Shown in pieces: positions 13,950 through 57,742 of a stretch of 64,000 bases of DNA. Below the pieces are notes generated by a model. It ran no database searches and was not told the DNA's origin. It saw only the letters and a program-made list of their open reading frames with translations. The translations under genes and the position numbers were made by a program. Numbering within the stretch: position 1 is the stretch's first letter; the number at the start of each line of letters is the position of its first letter. The stretch lies in assembly GCA_947447825.1 (NCBI GenBank), contig CANFLL010000004.1, forward strand, positions 1-64,000, in the 5' to 3' direction. This stretch comes from Chitinophagaceae bacterium (GTDB taxonomy: Bacteria > Bacteroidota > Bacteroidia > Chitinophagales > Chitinophagaceae).

Positions 13950-15188
13950 TTGGTTATGAGTGATTATTTAACATTGGCAGAAGCTTCAGAATTTATAGGG
14001 AAGAGTAAGGAAACCCTAAGACGTTGGGATAGAGAAGGAAAGCTAAATGCTGTCCGTGAACCAATGAGCAACTATAGGGTTTACAGAAAAGCAGAAGTAT
14101 TGTCTTTGTTTTCTGACTTTGTTACGCCGGATATATCTGAATCTATTTCAAACTTTGTTCTTCCCGATCACGGATATACTGTATTGGAGTTGTTTGCAGG
14201 TGCTGGAGGGCTAGCTGTAGGAATAGAAAAAGCAGGATTGAAATGTGTTGCACTAAATGAATTGGACAAATGGGCTTGTCAAACTCTTCGGAATAATCGA
14301 CCGAATTGGAAGGTGTTGGAGGGAGATATAAAGTCCTTCAATTTTGAAGAATACCATAATAAGGTAGATGTCGTAACTGGTGGATTTCCTTGTCAGGCAT
14401 TTAGTTATGCAGGCAAAAAGTTAGGATTGGCAGATGCGCGAGGCACCTTGTTTTATGAGTTTGCACGTGTAGTGAAAGAGGTTAACCCACCAATATGTAT
14501 TGGTGAGAATGTACGTGGGTTATTGAGTCATGAAAATGGAAAAACATTGCAGGGTATGGTTTCTATATTGGACGAGATAGGTTATAATGTTGTTCCTGTT
14601 CAGGTATTAAAAGCTATTAACTATAAAGTTCCCCAAAAACGGGAACGATTAATCTTGGTAGGAATTAGAAAAGATATTGGCTTAAAATACGAATATCCTA
14701 AGCCTTATAAAATGATTTATAACCTAAAGGATGCCCTTAAAAAAGGCGAGCTATTTGATACAGATGTTCCATTGTCCGAAGGTGTAAAGTATCCTAAGAG
14801 CAAAAAAGACGTGTTAGACTTGGTGCCACCAAAAGGATATTGGAGAGACCTTCCATTACATATTCAGAAAGAATTTATGGGGGGAAGTTTTCACCTTGGT
14901 GGAGGTAAGACAGGTATTGCTAGAAGGATTGGATGGGACGAGCCTTGCCTTACCCTAACTTGTAGTCCTGCCCAAAAACAAACAGAACGTTGCCATCCAG
15001 ATGAAACAAGACCTTTTACAGTAAGGGAATACGCCCGCATACAAACCTTTCCCGACGATTGGCAGTTTCATGGTTCAATGGCTCAACAATACAAACAAAT
15101 AGGAAATGCCGTTCCTGTAAACTTAGGAAGGGAGGTTGGTTATTCTATTATCCAGTTTTTAAATGAATACTATAAGATTAAAAAGTAA
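13950..15188 (+). CDS. DNA (cytosine-5) methyltransferase with N-terminal MerR/excisionase-like HTH
   Basis: LELFAGAGGLAVGIEKAG, GGFPCQAFSYAGKK, ENVRGL, QIGNAVPV motifs; N-term LTLAEASEFIGKSKETLRRWDREGKL. Confidence 0.94.
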   Translation: MVMSDYLTLAEASEFIGKSKETLRRWDREGKLNAVREPMSNYRVYRKAEVLSLFSDFVTPDISESISNFVLPDHGYTVLELFAGAGGLAVGIEKAGLKCVALNELDKWACQTLRNNRPNWKVLEGDIKSFNFEEYHNKVDVVTGGFPCQAFSYAGKKLGLADARGTLFYEFARVVKEVNPPICIGENVRGLLSHENGKTLQGMVSILDEIGYNVVPVQVLKAINYKVPQKRERLILVGIRKDIGLKYEYPKPYKMIYNLKDALKKGELFDTDVPLSEGVKYPKSKKDVLDLVPPKGYWRDLPLHIQKEFMGGSFHLGGGKTGIARRIGWDEPCLTLTCSPAQKQTERCHPDETRPFTVREYARIQTFPDDWQFHGSMAQQYKQIGNAVPVNLGREVGYSIIQFLNEYYKIKK

Positions 15189-15891
15189 ATAATGGTGAGG
15201 TTCTTATCTCATTAGCTAAATCACTACATCCTTTTTCAAAGAAATCTTGTGTATCAAGTTCCAAGATACTTAGATTCAGTGCTACAACAAGTTGATCATA
15301 GAACCTAATATATCCAGTTACCCTATGCCAAAAATCCCTACCTATCAGTACGGGATGGGCGGCATCTATTTTTCTGTAATGCATACTCAATTCAGATGGC
15401 TCACCATATAAAACACCTACAATAAAGTCCGAATTGCTAATGCCAGATAGTGCCCTGTTAGTTCTAGCTAGGTTAATTGTGTCGGTAAACTTTTTGATAA
15501 GTGGGTTAACATCTTCCGAGTTAATAGTATTAGGGCCAGATTTCAATTGACACCATTTCTTTCTTGAATCAACTTTGTCTATAAACTCAATATCCATCCC
15601 CTTTATCATTGAACCTTCAGCAATGCCTAAATCAATGAACATACTTTGAATTCTTGTTCCAAAAGAAGTATTGATAGACGTACCAAGAACCCTAGGATAA
15701 TACAATGCTTTTGCAATTCCTTCTGGACTAAACTTTCCATCCAATACCTTTGACAAGTATTTTACTACGATTGGATTTATGTTGTAGGACTTTAGTTTAG
15801 AATGTGTTTTAAGTGAAGAATTGATATGTTGTTCAAAGATATTTTCTTTAAAATATCCCACAATCTTCAGCGTAAGTTCTTGTTCTGTCAT
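15178..15891 (-). CDS. Type II restriction endonuclease, possibly Eco47II/PmeII-like
   Basis: 237 aa, convergent with and overlapping the 3' end of the C5-MTase; KGMDIEFIDKVDSRKKWCQLKSGPNTINSEDV compatible with a D-(E/Q)xK nuclease core. Confidence 0.7.
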   Translation of the reverse strand: MTEQELTLKIVGYFKENIFEQHINSSLKTHSKLKSYNINPIVVKYLSKVLDGKFSPEGIAKALYYPRVLGTSINTSFGTRIQSMFIDLGIAEGSMIKGMDIEFIDKVDSRKKWCQLKSGPNTINSEDVNPLIKKFTDTINLARTNRALSGISNSDFIVGVLYGEPSELSMHYRKIDAAHPVLIGRDFWHRVTGYIRFYDQLVVALNLSILELDTQDFFEKGCSDLANEIRTSPLFTF

Positions 15892-15977
15892 TCAATAAGG
15901 TTTAATTTATTTCCTCAAATATAGTTGGATATAACTGTTATCCTTACTTGTTTTTTCCGTCTTTGTTGGTGTTCCCC

Positions 15978-16030
15978 GATACCGCACGTCAAATCAGGGT
16001 GTCGCTGCCGCAAGTCTGTGACTTGTGGTA
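15978..16030. repeat. Right inverted-repeat element flanking the R-M module
   Basis: CGCACGTCAAATCAGGGTGTCGCTGCCGCAAGTCTGTGACTTGTGG. Confidence 0.7.
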
Positions 16031-16221
16031 TGTAAGCAAGTTCCCCTACATCTCTTACTTCTACCACTCTAATAAATTTTACAAAAAAGAGGTTCTCATA
16101 AGCTGATTTCAAACGGACACTCCTTTTTCTACTTCGTAAAGATGCAGATTTATTTTGTATAACAATAAAATAAAATTGTCACGATGTGTAAATGATTGGT
16201 GCTAGAGTTTATTCGGCAACT

Positions 16222-16254
16222 AACGCTATAAGGGCTTTGAGCCCTTATAGCGTT
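16222..16254. repeat. Perfect 15-bp hairpin
   Basis: AACGCTATAAGGGCT-TTG-AGCCCTTATAGCGTT. Confidence 0.8.
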
Positions 16255-16577
16255 TTGGTGTTTTGCGTATAGATGTGGTGAAGAACGCCAACTTCGACAA
16301 ATGGAAACACCGAAAGCTTCATGCTTTCTGGAAGATGCAATAACTCTCTTCCATCTCCCTCAAAAAACTATTTCAAATTTAATTAGGTTTTATCGAACTT
16401 TCCTTTGAACCTTCACCAGAATTAAAAACTGACTAATTACTAAAACATAAAACGTTGCTTTATGAACACATTAGTAGCTTACAAATTTCTTCTTTGCAAC
16501 GTCCGAAATAGCTGCTATTCAACGGCAGTAATCATTACACAGCTTCAACTAGATGGTTAAAAGGCTTTTTTGCTTCC

Positions 16578-16760
16578 AAGAACAATATCATTCTTAGTAA
16601 GAACAATATCATTCTTGGCAAAAACAATATCATTCTTAGTAAGAATGATATCATTCTTAGTAAGAACAATATCATTCTTGGTAAGAACAAATTCATTCTT
16701 GATAAGAACAATATCATTCTTGGCAAGAACAATATCCTTCTTGGTAAGAACAATATTCAG
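16578..16760. repeat. 21-nt-period palindromic array 1
   Basis: 8 units plus a partial one of AAGAACAATATCATTCTTGGT; one unit has the perfect palindrome AAGAATGATATCATTCTT. Confidence 0.95.
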
Positions 16761-16826
16761 GAAGGGAAAAAGTAAATTGCAATTAACCTCTTTTACATAC
16801 TCGTTTAATCATTAAATTTAAAAAAA

Positions 16827-17495
16827 ATGTCAGACAACAAACCGCTTATACCATCAACAGATGACGGCAAACATGGTTTTTACATAGTTATTGTGCCATA
16901 CATAAATCTGGCTGCCAATCAATTGCGTTTCAATACGCCCGCAGGAATTCTTTCAGCAATGAACACCAATTATGGGCTTTGGAATCCAAATTGGTTAAAG
17001 TATAAGGATGTTTCTCAGTGCACAAAGCCAGTAATTGAATTAAAGGATAGCTTGGAAATTAAGCTTGACGGTAATATTGATGATGTTTATGGGGATATTC
17101 CCGATTCTGTTTTAACGGCCAACGACAAGGCTGTATTTTTAATTTATGCCCGTAAAGCGGCAAGTTCGGCTGTGGTTTCGCCCATAGCACCGGGTTTTGC
17201 AATGGATACTGCGGGTCATTTGTGGGCTAAGTTTCTATTTCACAACACCGCCACGCCTACTAGTAAGGGTGCGCCAACGGGCAATATTGTTTATTACGAA
17301 ACCTACATTGGTGCAGCGGGCATTGCCAATGCCGATGTGGTGTTTAGCAATGGAAACGTAACATCTTCATCAATACATACTTTTCATTTTGATGAAAGTC
17401 AGGTAGGAAAAACTTGTTACGTGCGCTGTTTTTATCAAACAAAAAAAGACGAACGTAGCCCTGCAAGCGTCATTCTTAGCTTTGTGATAATGTAG
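16827..17495 (+). CDS. Hypothetical protein with FN3/Ig-like C-terminal region
   Basis: 222 aa; helical-type N-term plus beta-rich C-term HTFHFDESQVGKTCYVRCFYQTKKDERSPASVILSFVIM. Confidence 0.75.
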   Translation: MSDNKPLIPSTDDGKHGFYIVIVPYINLAANQLRFNTPAGILSAMNTNYGLWNPNWLKYKDVSQCTKPVIELKDSLEIKLDGNIDDVYGDIPDSVLTANDKAVFLIYARKAASSAVVSPIAPGFAMDTAGHLWAKFLFHNTATPTSKGAPTGNIVYYETYIGAAGIANADVVFSNGNVTSSSIHTFHFDESQVGKTCYVRCFYQTKKDERSPASVILSFVIM

Positions 17496-17618
17496 GAGGT
17501 GCTAAGTATTGTGTAAAATAAAAGAAGAGACTGCCCATTGGCACACGTCAAATTAGAATGTGAAACGGACTTGCTGCTACCGCACGTTTCCTCACGTGTT
17601 GATTCGCTAAGATGCTTC

Positions 17619-17677
17619 ACTAGACCATCAATATCCCAATAGTGCAATACTGCTCGAAAATCTGGATGCTAGAAGGG
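17619..17677. repeat. Dispersed palindromic element, copy A
   Basis: ACTAGACCATCAATATCCCAATAGTGCAATACTGCTCGAAAATCTGGATGCTAGAAG. Confidence 0.65.
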
Positions 17678-17683
17678 TTGACC

Positions 17684-17717
17684 AATCCTATAAGGGGCTG
17701 GCAGCCCTTATAGGATT
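17684..17717. repeat. Hairpin related to 16222-16254
   Basis: AATCCTATAAGGG-GCTGGCAG-CCCTTATAGGATT; shares CTATAAGGG/CCCTTATAG with 16222-16254. Confidence 0.75.
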
Positions 17718-17726
17718 TTATCTGCG

Positions 17727-18578
17727 ATGTTATTCTTCTTTACCAAAATCTATAAAGACGTAATCTATATATTTGTGAGAGGGAAATCGTTAGTTTTAGA
17801 TATGAAATTCAAAAGCAGCATTCTTTTTATATTCACAATTTGCACATTGTATAATTGTAATTCTCAGCAAAGTGACAATATTAAGTTTCCCCTAATTTAT
17901 ACGGGCCATTATAGAGAATTAATGGAGGCTTGTGAAAAAGAGGACACCTTCCTCATAGGAAAAATAATGTACAAACACAAATTAAATCCTAATTATGTTG
18001 AATCAAAAAGCTGTATTTCTTTACTTAATTGGTGCATAATTAATCATAAAATTAATTCTACAGAAGCGTTACTAAAAATGGGGGCAGATCCAAATTGGGC
18101 AGACTCTAATTGCACATATCCTCCCCCAATAACCATTGCAACTGAAATGGAGCAACCATTAATTTTTTTAAAATTAATGGTAAAGTATAAGGGTGATGTA
18201 AATGTAAAGTCTTCTAATTTTATAGACCCTAATCCTGGACTAAAAGGTAAATCCCCACTTTACGCAGCTATATATTCTGGAGAAATGGATAAAATAAAAT
18301 TGTTAGTTGATAATGGAGCAGATATTAATTTAAGGATTGATTCTACGCCTAGTCCATTGGCATTAGCATTGCTTCATAGAAAATTAGTTACAGTAAAATA
18401 TTTATTAGATGAAGGAGCAGATTTTAAAGAGTTAAATTTTGTTACTTTAGATGGGGAAAAACTAACTATTTATGATTTTCTTGATAAAATTAAACCAATG
18501 AAAGACACAAATCAAATGGAATTAAAAAAGAAAATAATCGAATATTTAGAATTAAAAAATTACAAACGAAAACAATAG
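17727..18578 (+). CDS. Ankyrin-repeat protein
   Basis: Repeats such as GKSPLYAAIYSGEMDKIKLLVDNGADINLRIDSTPSPLALALLHRKLVTVKYLLDEGADF; likely start at the internal MKFKSSILFIFTICTLYNCNS lipoprotein-like signal. Confidence 0.85.
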   Translation: MLFFFTKIYKDVIYIFVRGKSLVLDMKFKSSILFIFTICTLYNCNSQQSDNIKFPLIYTGHYRELMEACEKEDTFLIGKIMYKHKLNPNYVESKSCISLLNWCIINHKINSTEALLKMGADPNWADSNCTYPPPITIATEMEQPLIFLKLMVKYKGDVNVKSSNFIDPNPGLKGKSPLYAAIYSGEMDKIKLLVDNGADINLRIDSTPSPLALALLHRKLVTVKYLLDEGADFKELNFVTLDGEKLTIYDFLDKIKPMKDTNQMELKKKIIEYLELKNYKRKQ

Positions 18579-18589
18579 ACTAACTCCTT

Positions 18590-18650
18590 CTAGCTCATGA
18601 ATAACCCAACAGTGCAGTACTGCTCTAATATCGGGTGCTAGTTCATTACT
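18590..18650. repeat. Dispersed palindromic element, copy B
   Basis: CTAGCTCATGAATAACCCAACAGTGCAGTACTGCTCTAATATCGGGTGCTAGTTCATTA. Confidence 0.7.
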
Positions 18651-18746
18651 CCCGTTATGGACTGATTGGTTACTTGGTTTAGCATAAGTGAAATATAAAA
18701 TAAACCGCCCCACTCTGCAAAAGGTATATTTGTATAAATACTTGAA

Positions 18747-19295
18747 ATGCAAATAATACAATCCATACAAAACAGGATATACACGATAAGGGGAGAAAGA
18801 GTAATGCTAGATTTTGATTTGGCAGCCCTCTACGAAGTAGAAACAAGGGTATTGAACCAAGCCGTGAAAAGAAACTTGAAAAGATTTCCCGAAGATTTCA
18901 TGTTCAGACTTAGTGTTACCGAGTGGCAAATGATGCAGTCACAATTTGTGACCGCATCCCCTATGTCATCACAAATTGTGATGACATACCCAAGCAAGCG
19001 ACCTTCTGCAGCTTTGCCATATGCTTTTACCGAACAAGGAGTAGCAATGCTTAGTGGCATACTAAACAGTGATAAGGCAATAAATACCAATATTGCCATC
19101 ATGCGAGCATTTATAGAAGTTCGAAAAGTATTGCTTCAACAAACTGATATGCGCGAACAACTGCGGGAAATAAAAGAGCGGATGGGCGAACACGATACCC
19201 AACTAAATCAAATATATGATGCCATGGAAAACCTGCTAGACGAAAAAGCCGCCCAAAGAAAATGGGATGAACGCCAACGGATTGGGTTTAAGTAG
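18747..19295 (+). CDS. ORF6N domain (KilA-N-like) DNA-binding protein
   Basis: IYTIRGERVMLDFDLAALYEVETRVLNQAVKRNLKRFPEDFMFRLS. Confidence 0.92.
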   Translation: MQIIQSIQNRIYTIRGERVMLDFDLAALYEVETRVLNQAVKRNLKRFPEDFMFRLSVTEWQMMQSQFVTASPMSSQIVMTYPSKRPSAALPYAFTEQGVAMLSGILNSDKAINTNIAIMRAFIEVRKVLLQQTDMREQLREIKERMGEHDTQLNQIYDAMENLLDEKAAQRKWDERQRIGFK

Positions 19296-19306
19296 TAAGA
19301 ATCCTA

Positions 19307-19366
19307 TCTAGCCCAAAAATTCAGTACTGCCCAAAAAGTGGGGGTGTTAGTTCATTAGCAAGTGCT
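19307..19366. repeat. Dispersed palindromic element, copy C
   Basis: TCTAGCCCAAAAATTCAGTACTGCCCAAAAAGTGGGGGTGTTAGTTCATTAGC. Confidence 0.65.
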
Positions 19367-19454
19367 ATTTTAGGCAATCAGGGAGTTGAACGAATATCAA
19401 CACAAGAAAAATAGCAACAAAACCTCTTATCTTTAACCTAAATAAAATATTGCA

Positions 19455-19679
19455 ATGAATAATAGTTCAATAAATGCACAAATTAGTTTTCCTGAATTGG
19501 TAGCAATAGTGAAAACACTATCTAATTCAGAGAAACAATTATTAACAGAAGTATTATGGGATGATAATTTTCCAGTATTTGAAGAACATCAAAAGTTAGT
19601 GCAAAACAGAATGGAAAAAGCCAAAAGACAACCAGAAAGAATGTTGAATTGGGATGCTGTTTCTAAATCCTTAGGATAA
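19455..19679 (+). CDS. Addiction-module antitoxin
   Basis: 74 aa; SFPELVAIVKTLSNSEKQLLTEVLWDD...RPERMLNWDAV-type tail; directly upstream of a RelE/ParE-like ORF. Confidence 0.8.
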   Translation: MNNSSINAQISFPELVAIVKTLSNSEKQLLTEVLWDDNFPVFEEHQKLVQNRMEKAKRQPERMLNWDAVSKSLG

Positions 19680-30751: not shown

Positions 30752-31129
30752 TCAATAATAACCTTGTTTCATTTCTACCCAATTGATGATTGTTTCTGCT
30801 TGTTCTAAACCTGCATTACTAACTTTTACACTTAGGTTTCCATCATATCCCATTGCAAGATGCAGCGTATCATAAGCTACTCTAAAGTTTAAAAGCATCT
30901 TTCTATCCACCTTTCCCAATTCCTCCTGATACCATTCCACACTTTTTCTTCCTTTTCTCTTCAATCCAAAATAACCATCCAACGCTTCCAAAATACCAGA
31001 GTAGGCAGTGTTTCCTGCCATCTTCACATACTTTTTATCATGATAAAATCCATCTTCCTTTTGCGCTTTAGTACTCAATATTTCTTTTGCATTATCTAAA
31101 TATCGGTGCGCTTCCTCAATATGTTTCAT
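30752..31129 (-). CDS. DUF5618-like small helical protein
   Basis: MKHIEEAHRYLDNAKEILSTKAQKEDGFYHDKKYVKMAGNTAYSGILEALDGYF. Confidence 0.75.
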   Translation of the reverse strand: MKHIEEAHRYLDNAKEILSTKAQKEDGFYHDKKYVKMAGNTAYSGILEALDGYFGLKRKGRKSVEWYQEELGKVDRKMLLNFRVAYDTLHLAMGYDGNLSVKVSNAGLEQAETIINWVEMKQGYY

Positions 31130-31277: not shown

Positions 31278-31901
31278 CTAATTTGCCGCCCTTGTTATTG
31301 GTGCACTATAATTTCTTCTTGGATCTGTGCCACAAGCCGCCATTTTAAAAACATAAGGAACAAAACTTGGCAAACCATCAATTTCTAAAGAGTGAGAAGT
31401 AGTTGTTTTTGTTACCCAAACACTTGCATCCGTTGCAGGATGAGGCGTAAACAATATTTCATAAAACTTGGCCTTAGGCATTGCTTTGCAACTAGCCAAC
31501 ACCTTATTACTAGCCTGTTGCGTAACAACATTAAAACCAGTAACCACTCCAAAAGCACCAATTTTAGCTTTTGAAGCCGCTGTGTGCATTCCTGCCGACA
31601 AAATTTTTGTTTCGTCGCCACCGCTAGTCAACTGCACATACGCACACTCCACGTGAATCATACCTTCCAAAATTTTCCGTTCATCATCTTTATCAGACGT
31701 TTGCGTTGGCGTACCATTATGAGCCAATGCTAATTTTCCCTGAAATTTAATCCGCTGTGCCGTAATTACCGTTAACGCAGGCGAAGGCGTTGCGTAGGTT
31801 GCGATACTTGCCGCCATCTTCGTTTCTATACTTTCCACTTCTATCACAAACTCAGGGTCTGTGTAAGTGTCTATCGAATAATTAATTAGAACATCTGCCA
31901 T
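31278..31901 (-). CDS. Hypothetical protein, N-terminal helical region plus C-terminal FN3-like domain (paralog of 56802-57422)
   Basis: LTSGGDETKILSAGMHTAASKAKIGAFGVVTGFNVVTQQASNKVL...SFVPYVFKMAACGTDPRRNYSAPITRAAN. Confidence 0.85.
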   Translation of the reverse strand: MADVLINYSIDTYTDPEFVIEVESIETKMAASIATYATPSPALTVITAQRIKFQGKLALAHNGTPTQTSDKDDERKILEGMIHVECAYVQLTSGGDETKILSAGMHTAASKAKIGAFGVVTGFNVVTQQASNKVLASCKAMPKAKFYEILFTPHPATDASVWVTKTTTSHSLEIDGLPSFVPYVFKMAACGTDPRRNYSAPITRAAN

Positions 31902-31989: not shown

Positions 31990-32178
31990 ATTTACTTGAT
32001 GACGAAAACCAAAAACTTCATCACTTAATCGAAAAAGTTCATCATAAAAAACATTTTCTTCATCAAATAATTATGGAACTTCATCAAAAAAACCAAAAAC
32101 TTCATCAAGTATTTGGAAAACTTCATCAAGAAAGTCAAATACTTCATCACTTTTTTCAATTACTTGATGAAGTTTTTG
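31990..32178. repeat. 21-nt-period palindromic array 2
   Basis: 9 units of 21 nt centred on ACTTCATCAAG(T); first and last units read the opposite way (TTGATGA). Confidence 0.93.
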
Positions 32179-39139: not shown

Positions 39140-40882
39140 ATGCACTCAAAACACCTCAAGCAACTCTGTCTCATTACTGTTCTACTATTAGGAAGTACGC
39201 TGTTGTCGGTGTTTTTAATTCTTTTATCCCTCGATAGAAATGAACTTATTGCGCATATCATCCGCCTAACCAATAAACCCTATTTGCTCAATCTATTATC
39301 TAATAAAATACTCACTCCGCAAAAGTTTACAATCCTAAGATACGGTTTGCAGGTCTCAATTATTCTTGATTGTATAACAATTGCCTTATTGTATCGTTTT
39401 AGAAATGGGGTATTGTCGTTACTGAATTTTATTTTTTCTACCATTAAAAATTGTTTTGGTGCTATCAGCCTTGCGCATAATACAAGAAAAGAAAATATAC
39501 TTCTACTCATCATACTGGCAATTGTATTTTTAAAAGGATTGTATTACATTCTATCATTCGATTTACAATATGATGAAATGTGGAGTTACAATTACTTCAC
39601 TTCTCGCCCCGTTTATCTTATTTTCTTTAGTTATAATAACTATCCGATTTACGAACTAAGTACGCACCTGTTTAAATGGCTGCCTTTTTCTATGAAGGTG
39701 AACCTACGATTACCCCCTTTTTTGATGGGGATATTTTGCATTTTCGTGTTATTTGGTTGCACAAAAAAGATTACGTCACACTTTCTCACCGCCCTTGCAA
39801 GCGTCGTATTATTTGCTTGCATGCCCGTTTCGGTGTTTTACATGTTGTATGCACGAGGGGTAATGTTCGAACTTTTCTTTGCCGTTACAGCATTTTTTAG
39901 TCTTGTATTTCTTGTAAAAACTCAGCAAAAGAAAAAGTATTTGTTTCTATATGTTGCCTCAAACGTGTTAGGAGCGTATTCCATGCCTACTCATTTGTAT
40001 TTCTGGGCAGTGTTTTCTTTGGTATCATTTCTTTATTTTATCCTTTATCAAAAATCAGTAATAAAGTCTATCTTACTAAGCAATTTTCTAATCCTAGCCT
40101 TAATCGTATTGTGTTATTTGCCAGTATTTTTTGGCTCTGGATTGTCGTTTGTTTTTGGTGCACTTACAGATACCTCTCAATCCACAAATCTATTTGCCAA
40201 CACAATTGCTTACACCAAAGGCATCAATAACTTCTTTACTGGCAATGTTTATGGTTTGGTAATTCTATCTTTTATGTCTTTTGTCTTTTTGTTTTTATAT
40301 AAAACAGCGGATTACAAATACCTATTTACATTGCTACTGGTTAACCTATTTATCTTTTTGCCAAGTATAATCTATCTATTTCAACGTGTATTTATCCCCG
40401 AAAGAGCTTTGGCTTTTATTGGCTTAGTAATTCCTTTTTTAGGATGCACGCTATTTTATTTTACAAAAAATTCTCTCAAACAATATCAACAGTATTGCAT
40501 TCTTGCAATTGTTTTTATTGCTGGTTGCGCCATCAGTCATCGGCATGAATACCTAAATTGGAGTGTTCAAAAAGACAAGGATGCCATTAAGCTTTCTACC
40601 CTTTTTTTAAAGAATAAAATAGAGACTTGCTATGATAATTCGCCCACTTCCGAGTTCTATTATTTCTATCCAGCTTTAGAATATTATTTTAGTCAGCAGA
40701 AAAAAACTATCAACTTTAATATGGCGGAACCTAATAGTCAGCGATATAAACCATTACTTTCCACAGATAATTTTGATTGCATTATAGATAGCATTTATGC
40801 CAATGAAGAACCAAGAAGAGTAAAGTATAAAAAGATATTTACTGATAATGCTTATGGATTTAAAGTGTGGCGGTTGAAATAA
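39140..40882 (+). CDS. Multi-pass membrane protein, GT39/ArnT-like glycosyltransferase
   Basis: LQYDEMWSYNYFTSRP motif after TM helices; KVNLRLPPFLMG. Confidence 0.75.
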   Translation: MHSKHLKQLCLITVLLLGSTLLSVFLILLSLDRNELIAHIIRLTNKPYLLNLLSNKILTPQKFTILRYGLQVSIILDCITIALLYRFRNGVLSLLNFIFSTIKNCFGAISLAHNTRKENILLLIILAIVFLKGLYYILSFDLQYDEMWSYNYFTSRPVYLIFFSYNNYPIYELSTHLFKWLPFSMKVNLRLPPFLMGIFCIFVLFGCTKKITSHFLTALASVVLFACMPVSVFYMLYARGVMFELFFAVTAFFSLVFLVKTQQKKKYLFLYVASNVLGAYSMPTHLYFWAVFSLVSFLYFILYQKSVIKSILLSNFLILALIVLCYLPVFFGSGLSFVFGALTDTSQSTNLFANTIAYTKGINNFFTGNVYGLVILSFMSFVFLFLYKTADYKYLFTLLLVNLFIFLPSIIYLFQRVFIPERALAFIGLVIPFLGCTLFYFTKNSLKQYQQYCILAIVFIAGCAISHRHEYLNWSVQKDKDAIKLSTLFLKNKIETCYDNSPTSEFYYFYPALEYYFSQQKKTINFNMAEPNSQRYKPLLSTDNFDCIIDSIYANEEPRRVKYKKIFTDNAYGFKVWRLK

Positions 40883-41132
40883 GGCTAACCAAATGCGACA
40901 AAAGCCTAAGCAAATGCCGCATAAGGTTGAACAAATATGATATAAGGTTAACCAAATGCGACAAAAGCCTAAGCAAATGCCGCATAAGGTTGAACAAATA
41001 TGATATAAGGTTAACCAAATGCGACGAAAGGCTTCCCAAATGCCGCATAAGGTTGAACAAATGCGACAAAAGTTTAGCCTAATGCCACATAATGTTAACC
41101 TAATGCCACATAAGGTTAGCCCAATACGACAC
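40881..41132. repeat. 21-nt-period array 3
   Basis: 12 exact 21-nt units (AAGGTTAACCAAATGCGACAA type); a 63-nt trimer is duplicated (40881-40943 vs 40944-41006, about 1 mismatch). Confidence 0.95.
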
Positions 41133-45979: not shown

Positions 45980-46210
45980 GAACCGGTTGAACATGTTTAA
46001 AAAAAGCTTTTTTAGCGTAATGTTCAGTTGAACGAGGTTTGCGTGAGGGCTTACGAAACTTCCGTTCAACTGAACTTATCTTCCGTGAGGGCTTACCGAG
46101 TTTCCGTTCAGCCGAACGAGGTTTCCGTAAAGGCTTACGGAACTTCCGTACGACTGAACATTTCCTCCGTAAGAGCTTACCGAACTTCCGTTCAATTGAA
46201 CTTATCTTCC
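45980..46210. repeat. 21-nt-period palindromic array 4 (9 clear units 46022-46210, 2 degenerate units before)
   Basis: Alternating GTTCA[RY]TGAAC and GTAAG[AG]CTTAC palindromes; degenerate units carry AACCGGTT and AAAAAGCTTTTT palindromes. Confidence 0.95.
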
Positions 46211-46313
46211 GAAAGGCAGTATAAACTTAAAAACTAAGTCTATATTAATGAATATGATTGATTAAAAGTTTCTCTTTTCAATCAAAAATTCATCTAGCTA
46301 AAATTGAAAGCTT

Positions 46314-56801: not shown

Positions 56802-57422
56802 TTAGTTCGCAGCTCTCGTTATTGGTGCGCAATAGTTTCTTCTTCTATCAGATCCACGAGCTGCCATTTTAAATACATAAGGAACAAAGCTTGGTAAATT
56901 TTCTATTTCTATGGAATGACTGGTAGATGTTTCAGAAATCCACACACTTGTAGCTATTGCTGGATAAGCGGTGTACAATACTTCATAGAAACCAGCTTTT
57001 GGCATAGGATTGCAACTGCACAACACTTTATTACTTGCTTCTTGTGTTACTACTTTAAAATTAGTTACTACTGCAAATACCCCAATTTTAGCTTTAGAAC
57101 CTGCTGTGTGCATTCCTGATGATAATATCTTGGTTTCATCACCACCACTTGTAAGTTGAATGTACGCACCCAATACGTGCATTTGCCCTTCTATAACAGC
57201 CCTTTTATCATTCTTATCAGAAGTGTCTGTTGGTGTTCCATCTTTAGCCTTTGCCACAGCAGTCTGAAACAATATACGCTCAGTAGTTATTGCTGCAACT
57301 GCGGGCGATGGTGTTGGAAAGCTTGAGTTGGGTGAAAGATGCGTCTCAATACTTTGCACTTCAGTTATTAATCCATCGTCAGTGTAAACGTCTCTTGAAT
57401 AATCAACCAGTACTTGTGACAT
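56802..57422 (-). CDS. Hypothetical protein with FN3-like C-term domain (paralog of 31278-31901)
   Basis: LTSGGDETKILSSGMHTAGSKAKIGVFAVVTNFKVVTQEASNKVL...SFVPYVFKMAARGSDRRRNYCAPITRAAN. Confidence 0.85.
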   Translation of the reverse strand: MSQVLVDYSRDVYTDDGLITEVQSIETHLSPNSSFPTPSPAVAAITTERILFQTAVAKAKDGTPTDTSDKNDKRAVIEGQMHVLGAYIQLTSGGDETKILSSGMHTAGSKAKIGVFAVVTNFKVVTQEASNKVLCSCNPMPKAGFYEVLYTAYPAIATSVWISETSTSHSIEIENLPSFVPYVFKMAARGSDRRRNYCAPITRAAN

Positions 57423-57532
57423 GACATTAATGATTTAATAAATGAAAAATAATCGGTTGAAAGTAGTCTTATTGTATCTAGCAATACTAGTTAGTTTACC
57501 AGAACAGGCATTTCAGACGTAAAATGGTTATA

Positions 57533-57742
57533 ATAATCACCAATATTATCAATATCTGTATCAAGATTATCATAATCGGTATACCGATGGAAACAATCTG
57601 TATAAAGATTGCCATCATCTGTATACAGATAGTCACCATATTCATACAGATGATGGCAATCGGTTGAAAGATATTGATGATATTGATACCGATTATCGCC
57701 ATCGGTATGAAGATATCCATAATCGGTAAGCCGATATTGGCT
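57533..57742. repeat. 21-nt-period palindromic array 5
   Basis: 10 units of 21 nt, 14-nt palindromic core plus 7-nt spacer; perfect cores ATCGGTATACCGAT and ATCTGTATACAGAT. Confidence 0.95.

Follow-up and report, generated by a model that had tools for sequence, protein, structure and literature searches.

Subirana and Messeguer described, in many bacteria, tandem repeats whose size is constant (20-21 or 52 nt) and whose sequence varies (PMC8161180, PMC6749651), and this class of repeats had been introduced by an earlier survey (reference 3 of PMC8161180). Several families of such repeats occur per species, and they are non-coding, species-specific, dispersed and without known function (PMC8161180, PMC6749651). 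The authors suggested that a protein might form polymers along the DNA or, alternatively, that small RNAs might be involved, and for the 52-nt class they stated that there was no evidence for a Cas-like protein (PMC8161180, PMC6749651). No gene or protein partner of constant-size repeats is named in these two papers or in the literature that we searched.

Here we analyzed a 64,000-nt stretch of DNA (the window) from a lake-type bacterium of Chitinophagaceae, together with sequences of its relatives. The arrays that we describe belong to the constant-size 20-21-nt kind of Subirana and Messeguer: their size is fixed near 21, they have no common sequence, several families occur per genome, and they are dispersed and non-coding. 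Beyond the described repeats, they have a palindrome-plus-spacer anatomy, a linked gene family and matching arrays that stand alone (solo arrays), and they are absent from genomes without the gene.

The cassette around the array at 16578-16756

The array at 16578-16756 (+ strand) consists of 8.5 copies of a 21-bp unit (TRF: period 21, 87% matches) with the consensus AAGAACAATATCATTCTTGGT. The unit is composed of a 12-bp palindrome and a 9-bp spacer (dyad symmetry, p = 0.004), and the 21-bp self-match of the array (0.89) is far over background. A gene for a 222-aa protein has its ATG at 16827, 70 nt beyond the end of the array. Thus, the array and the gene about 70 nt downstream, reported in the original prediction from the sequence, are real, and the pairing of the arms AAGAA and TTCTT was confirmed. 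The whole array was predicted to fold as one long hairpin on both strands, better on the - strand (z = -11.7) than on the + strand (z = -9.0), because tandem palindromes form one long inverted repeat. The array had also been called the most homogeneous one; this holds for 21-bp units (0.52-0.71 in the others) but not at 63 bp, where the self-match of the array at 41 kb is 0.99. Its supposed youth was not borne out, since units of the AAGAACAATATCATTCTTGGT class also occur at G004:C42 and, in arrays without an adjoining fibronectin-III (FN3) gene, at C148 (13 units), C77 and C16. The sequence class is therefore older than the copy at 16578-16756, whose homogeneity more likely reflects recent homogenisation than youth.

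When 14001-19500 was compared with L064 by blastn and alignment, the block common to the window and G004:C86 was confined to 16377-17541 (+ strand), and the flanks were unrelated on both sides. At G004:C86 the homologous block contained a short ORF, an array and the gene only, in agreement with the suggestion that array and gene move together. The idea that they arrived with a restriction-modification island is unsupported, as the block begins at 16377 and the island lies outside it. This restriction-modification pair, to the left of the cassette at 13950-15891, comprises a cytosine-5 methyltransferase with an N-terminal helix-turn-helix and an opposing gene for an EcoO109I-type restriction endonuclease. 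Between the window and G004:C86, the short ORF was nearly identical, the array barely aligned and the protein was 87% identical, with the second half of the gene more conserved than the first. Further, the same arrangement of a conserved left flank, a hypervariable array and a conserved gene, with the conservation ending near the stop codon, recurred in many pairs. About 20 copies of a cassette composed of a short peptide gene, a palindromic 21-bp array and a helix+FN3 gene are present in the genome, and this locus is one of them.

The short ORF (16462-16560, + strand; 32 aa, MNTLVAYKFLLCNVRNSCYSTAVIITQLQLDG) leaves a gap of about 13-17 nt to the array and is conserved in five related cassettes. 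Among these five, differences at the three codon positions numbered 54/26/103, and codons with a single change were synonymous in 64 cases and non-synonymous in 29. Three cassette groups carry three different short ORFs just before the array, and the second of the two larger groups showed 140/135/487 differences by codon position. Judged by this excess at third positions, the short ORFs of the two larger groups are very probably translated. Upstream of the family-B genes (see below) of L014 and L125, a conserved 48-aa short ORF that ends in FHFNHLxLYxPPTR lies just before the arrays.

Array-linked proteins of families A and B

The 222-aa protein (16827-17495, + strand; family A) was modelled by AlphaFold2 (mean pLDDT 90.6) as a helical domain (residues ~12-103) followed by an FN3 domain (~115-222). 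Two other proteins in the window, of 207 aa (31278-31901, - strand; helical + FN3, model pLDDT 91.4) and 206 aa (56802-57422, - strand; 65% identical to the 31-kb protein), belong to family B. In the predicted models of both families, three long helices and a short helix precede a seven-stranded FN3 domain. Comparison of these models using Foldseek and VIA-align gave FN3 matches of up to Z 11.0 (rmsd 2.2, 89 residues) for family A and Z 14.4 (rmsd 1.6, 90 residues) for family B; the lists for the whole models were dominated by the FN3 domain, and Pfam fn3 was detected in 6 of 27 family-B members. Thus, the predicted plan of both families is a domain of three helices joined to one of the fibronectin-III type. 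The similar plan that had been proposed for the 222-aa protein and the 31- and 57-kb proteins was recovered in this way, and structure prediction with fold comparison did not give the unrelated folds named as counting against it. The proposal that the 222-aa protein is no obvious paralog of the other two was also correct: a search of its own genome did not retrieve them, and no homology between the families was found by sequence (profile-profile probability, 0.8%).

The 222-aa protein had no matches in Pfam, PHROGs, PADLOC or NCBIfam, and no match was found in plasmids searched with families A and B or in phages searched with family B. We found no known DNA-binding domain or profile in the helix+FN3 proteins, no nuclease or HUH fold or transposase profile in the predicted fold and the profile searches, and no cas profile in the array-linked proteins. 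The pI is near neutral (6.2 for the 222-aa protein; family medians, 7.8 and 6.7). Within the genus, up to 24 matches of family A and 14 of family B were counted per genome. A DUF5618 gene (30752-31129) immediately follows the 31-kb FN3 gene, and two family-A genes (L003, L004) are likewise followed by DUF5618 genes.

Anatomy and distribution of the arrays

Among 89 distinct family members for which 400 nt or more of upstream DNA were available, strong periodicity was detected upstream of 68, and the best period was 21, 42 or 63 in all 68. The consensus of the array varies from locus to locus and the period is constant. The gene-linked arrays sit about 50-220 bp before the start codon, and arrays were also present upstream at four loci on contigs labelled outside Chitinophagaceae (L022, L023, L024 and L026). 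Compared with column permutations, 51 of 66 gene-linked arrays (28 of them at p <= 0.002) and 27 of 39 solo arrays showed significant dyad symmetry (p < 0.05). Alignment on the dyad divides the unit into a 12-bp palindrome and 9 remaining bp. In 47 arrays, mean conservation was 1.1-1.7 bits per position in the palindrome, where it peaked at the ends and was lowest at the centre, and 0.7-1.2 bits in the spacer, which leaned to AA in its first half and to TT in its second. Higher conservation of the palindrome than of the spacer is the pattern that would be expected of dimer sites. Note that 21 bp corresponds to two turns of B-DNA.

We also considered whether the arrays encode a 7-residue repeat and rejected this possibility. 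A + frame was open in 42 of 66 arrays, no more than expected by chance (estimated at ~97% for identical units). Most frames contain stop codons, and their frequency indicates that the arrays are non-coding. Separately, five arrays with periods of 62, 82 or 41 bp, just below multiples of 21, were observed (L184:13011-13421, L189:13446-13653, L163:12047-12401, L188:15648-15919 and L184:1734-2104). Those of L184 and L189 share sequence around ACAAGAATAG, and arrays with these periods possibly form a second class.

Four further 21-bp-class arrays are present in the window, at 32.0, 40.9, 46.1 and 57.6 kb. The first (32005-32149, - strand; 21/42 bp) and the last (57519-57736, - strand; 21 bp, with ATCNGTATACNGAT palindromes) lie upstream of the family-B genes for the 207- and 206-aa proteins, respectively. 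The other two have no helix+FN3 gene alongside. The solo array at 40879-41131 (21/63 bp), between convergent genes, has a unit resembling the array of the family-B gene G000:C6:23234 (similarity 0.89), and the unit of that at 46022-46216 (42/84 bp) resembles the array of the family-A gene G000:C2:1444 (0.84). Orthologous genes were found for both of these loci.

In 683 kb of the same genome, picked regardless of arrays, we detected, in intergenic DNA, 45 arrays whose period was a precise multiple of 21 and 9 others whose period deviated from such a multiple by at most 2 bp; a separate merged count of this sample gave 56, so that the number is about 55. The density estimated from this sample is one array per 12-15 kb, which extrapolates to ~300-380 in 4.6 Mb. 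A 771-kb sample contained 63 arrays of several classes, almost none of which were within ORFs. The genes around solo arrays were arranged in tandem in 28 cases, divergently in 10 and convergently in 8. Further, 10 of 11 FN3-family ORFs in the unbiased sample had an array within 500 bp upstream (chance 0.057 per gene, p ~4e-12), and the sole exception was a fragment.

The densities in G006, G007, G032 and G012 were 2.9-5.1 arrays per 100 kb. In G005 and G008, which belong to the same genus and have no A/B matches, no array was found in 257 kb, where ~17 would be expected at the density of the window's genome (p 4e-8) and 7.5 at the lowest observed density (p 6e-4); these are fragmented drafts, which break at repeats, and contigs were taken in order rather than randomly. 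The absence of arrays from these two genomes may represent one shared loss. No array was found in 220 kb of three FN3-free genera or in 149 kb of two genera with one array-less FN3 gene. In G012 (L280-L284), a genome of the same genus with few FN3 genes, many other tandem repeats are present, with periods of 9, 14, 35, 45 and 99.

We compared solo arrays with gene-linked arrays at a similarity threshold of 0.7, using reversed uncomplemented units and arrays of distant taxa as controls. A gene-linked array of the same genome was matched by 16 of 39 solo arrays (reversed control, 0; distant taxa, 0) and one of another genome in the genus by 2, and 21 had no match among the gene-linked arrays compared. 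The flanks of the orthologous solo arrays C77 and G006:C60 are 80% identical, and the sequence of the array has drifted. Turnover was also seen beside the gene: where proteins were at least 80% identical, arrays were similar in 8 of 15 pairs, and some pairs of 90% identical proteins had unrelated arrays. Array similarity tracked the helical domain over the FN3 domain (partial correlation 0.57 vs -0.46; within-clade permutation p < 0.001). However, for the three largest clades the correlation with the helical domain came to 0.09, 0.32 and 0.74, most of it being due to one clade, and thus a dependence of the array on the helical domain is only suggestive.

A possible DNA role of the arrays

We propose, with a probability of about 40%, that the locus is a gene-plus-array cassette whose product, directly or via a partner, acts on matching arrays throughout the genome. 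By inference, the arrays are bound by the helix+FN3 protein, the solo arrays serve as its targets and the binding has a cellular role. Each array class would be a set of two-fold-symmetric binding sites at a spacing of two helical turns, which would let symmetric protein units line up along the same side of the double helix. Each class would be determined by its own cassette: the helix+FN3 protein, either by itself or together with a partner such as the peptide, would bind its own array and the solo arrays, with the helical domain closest to the DNA and the FN3 domain making protein-protein contacts. Binding may lead to self-regulation and to the marking or organising of intergenic DNA, and retargeting would occur when the array is swapped and the gene retained. 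A role at the level of DNA is made more likely by the strictness of the period and by a conservation profile like that of binding sites. The linkage of arrays to FN3 genes, the matching solo arrays and the array-free genomes without these genes also speak for the proposal. We count against this proposal that the proteins are near neutral without a recognised DNA-binding domain and that single FN3 genes without arrays exist in other genera. Further, unrelated arrays beside 90% identical proteins fit poorly with a protein that reads the sequence by itself, and 21 of the 39 solo arrays are without a match among the gene-linked arrays compared.

The layout resembles that of REP/REPIN sequences with RAYT (TnpA-REP), in which intergenic palindromes include one gene-linked set and dispersed copies, and dispersed palindromes cognate to a linked gene are what we found in the 16 matching solo arrays. 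The arrays could accordingly be non-autonomous mobile DNA that is spread by the cassette through a single-stranded hairpin, possibly with no benefit to the host. This is unlikely in our view, even though solo arrays of the same sequence occupy gaps of all three gene orientations, one long hairpin is predicted for the array as a whole and the flanks of the cassette differ. The protein has no visible nuclease or HUH fold, a hairpin does not require exactly 21 bp, and the persistence of the drifted orthologous arrays C77 and G006:C60 argues that copies are not simply recent. Unlike REP/RAYT, the arrays here are long and keep strictly to a 21-bp period, no GTAG/CGTC tag occurs in the unit AAGAACAATATCATTCTTGGT or its complement (this unit only), and the gene encodes helices and FN3 rather than a Y1/HUH transposase. 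As the linked gene is not a transposase, the arrays are not members of REP/RAYT despite the similar layout. At L002:3004-3639, the gene for a protein that starts with MAKTEPYYIKFEENKFYHVYNRSTDKQPMF, which we take to resemble a REP-associated Y1 transposase (no match in Pfam), adjoins a 102-bp repeat array.

Alternatively, the arrays before FN3 genes might be regulatory DNA of local effect or vary in copy number (phase variation), and solo arrays might have this role at other genes, without the FN3 protein being a reader. Their position before start codons and their fast turnover among close relatives are consistent with this idea. We nevertheless regard it as improbable: some solo arrays lie between convergent genes, sequence classes are common to several loci, and cis-regulation alone does not predict that FN3-free genomes are without arrays.

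Less likely still is a function as RNA, in which a transcript, perhaps antisense, would form a long hairpin or an array of hairpins. The predicted folding is strong and better on the - strand. In the array at 16578-16756, A-C mispairs exceed G-T mispairs on the + strand (30 vs 5) and hence become G-U pairs on the - strand, as had been claimed. The claim did not extend to arrays in general, among which the minus strand was favoured by 29 and the plus strand by 16 (p = 0.03), a bias that base composition could explain. Over 47 arrays, we counted 430 G-T and 573 A-C mispairs. The sense strand showed no preference for G-U pairs, and we rejected an RNA hairpin as a general function on this ground. 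Further, RNA hairpins need neither a strict 21-bp period nor contiguous palindromes, and all matches to Rfam families were below the gathering score. Finally, tandem repeats grow by slippage and the units are homogeneous, but functionless repeats born in this way are very improbable, as they predict none of the fixed 21-bp period, the palindromy, the gene association and the absence from FN3-free genomes.

Two other kinds of array differ from those described here. CRISPRs have identical repeats, unique spacers of ~25-40 nt and cas genes, whereas the present spacers are 9 bp long and related in sequence within an array, and the linked proteins have no cas profile. Iteron and partition-site (parS/parC-like) arrays are phased tandem sites that adjoin the gene of their binder and are bound by plasmid proteins. 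The arrays here are likewise phased tandem sites beside the gene of a candidate binder; unlike iterons and partition sites, they number hundreds on the chromosome (by extrapolation), and their sequence shifts from locus to locus.

It is a tentative and somewhat doubtful extension that the helix+FN3 family, each member with its own palindromic 21-bp array and matching arrays elsewhere, forms quickly retargeted DNA-organising systems that explain at least part of the constant-size bacterial repeats. The family would be the first candidate partner for constant-size, variable-sequence repeats of bacteria. Further, the linked family, the anatomy of the unit, the matching solo arrays and the genomes without both genes and arrays make the idea of a protein that forms polymers on the DNA testable.
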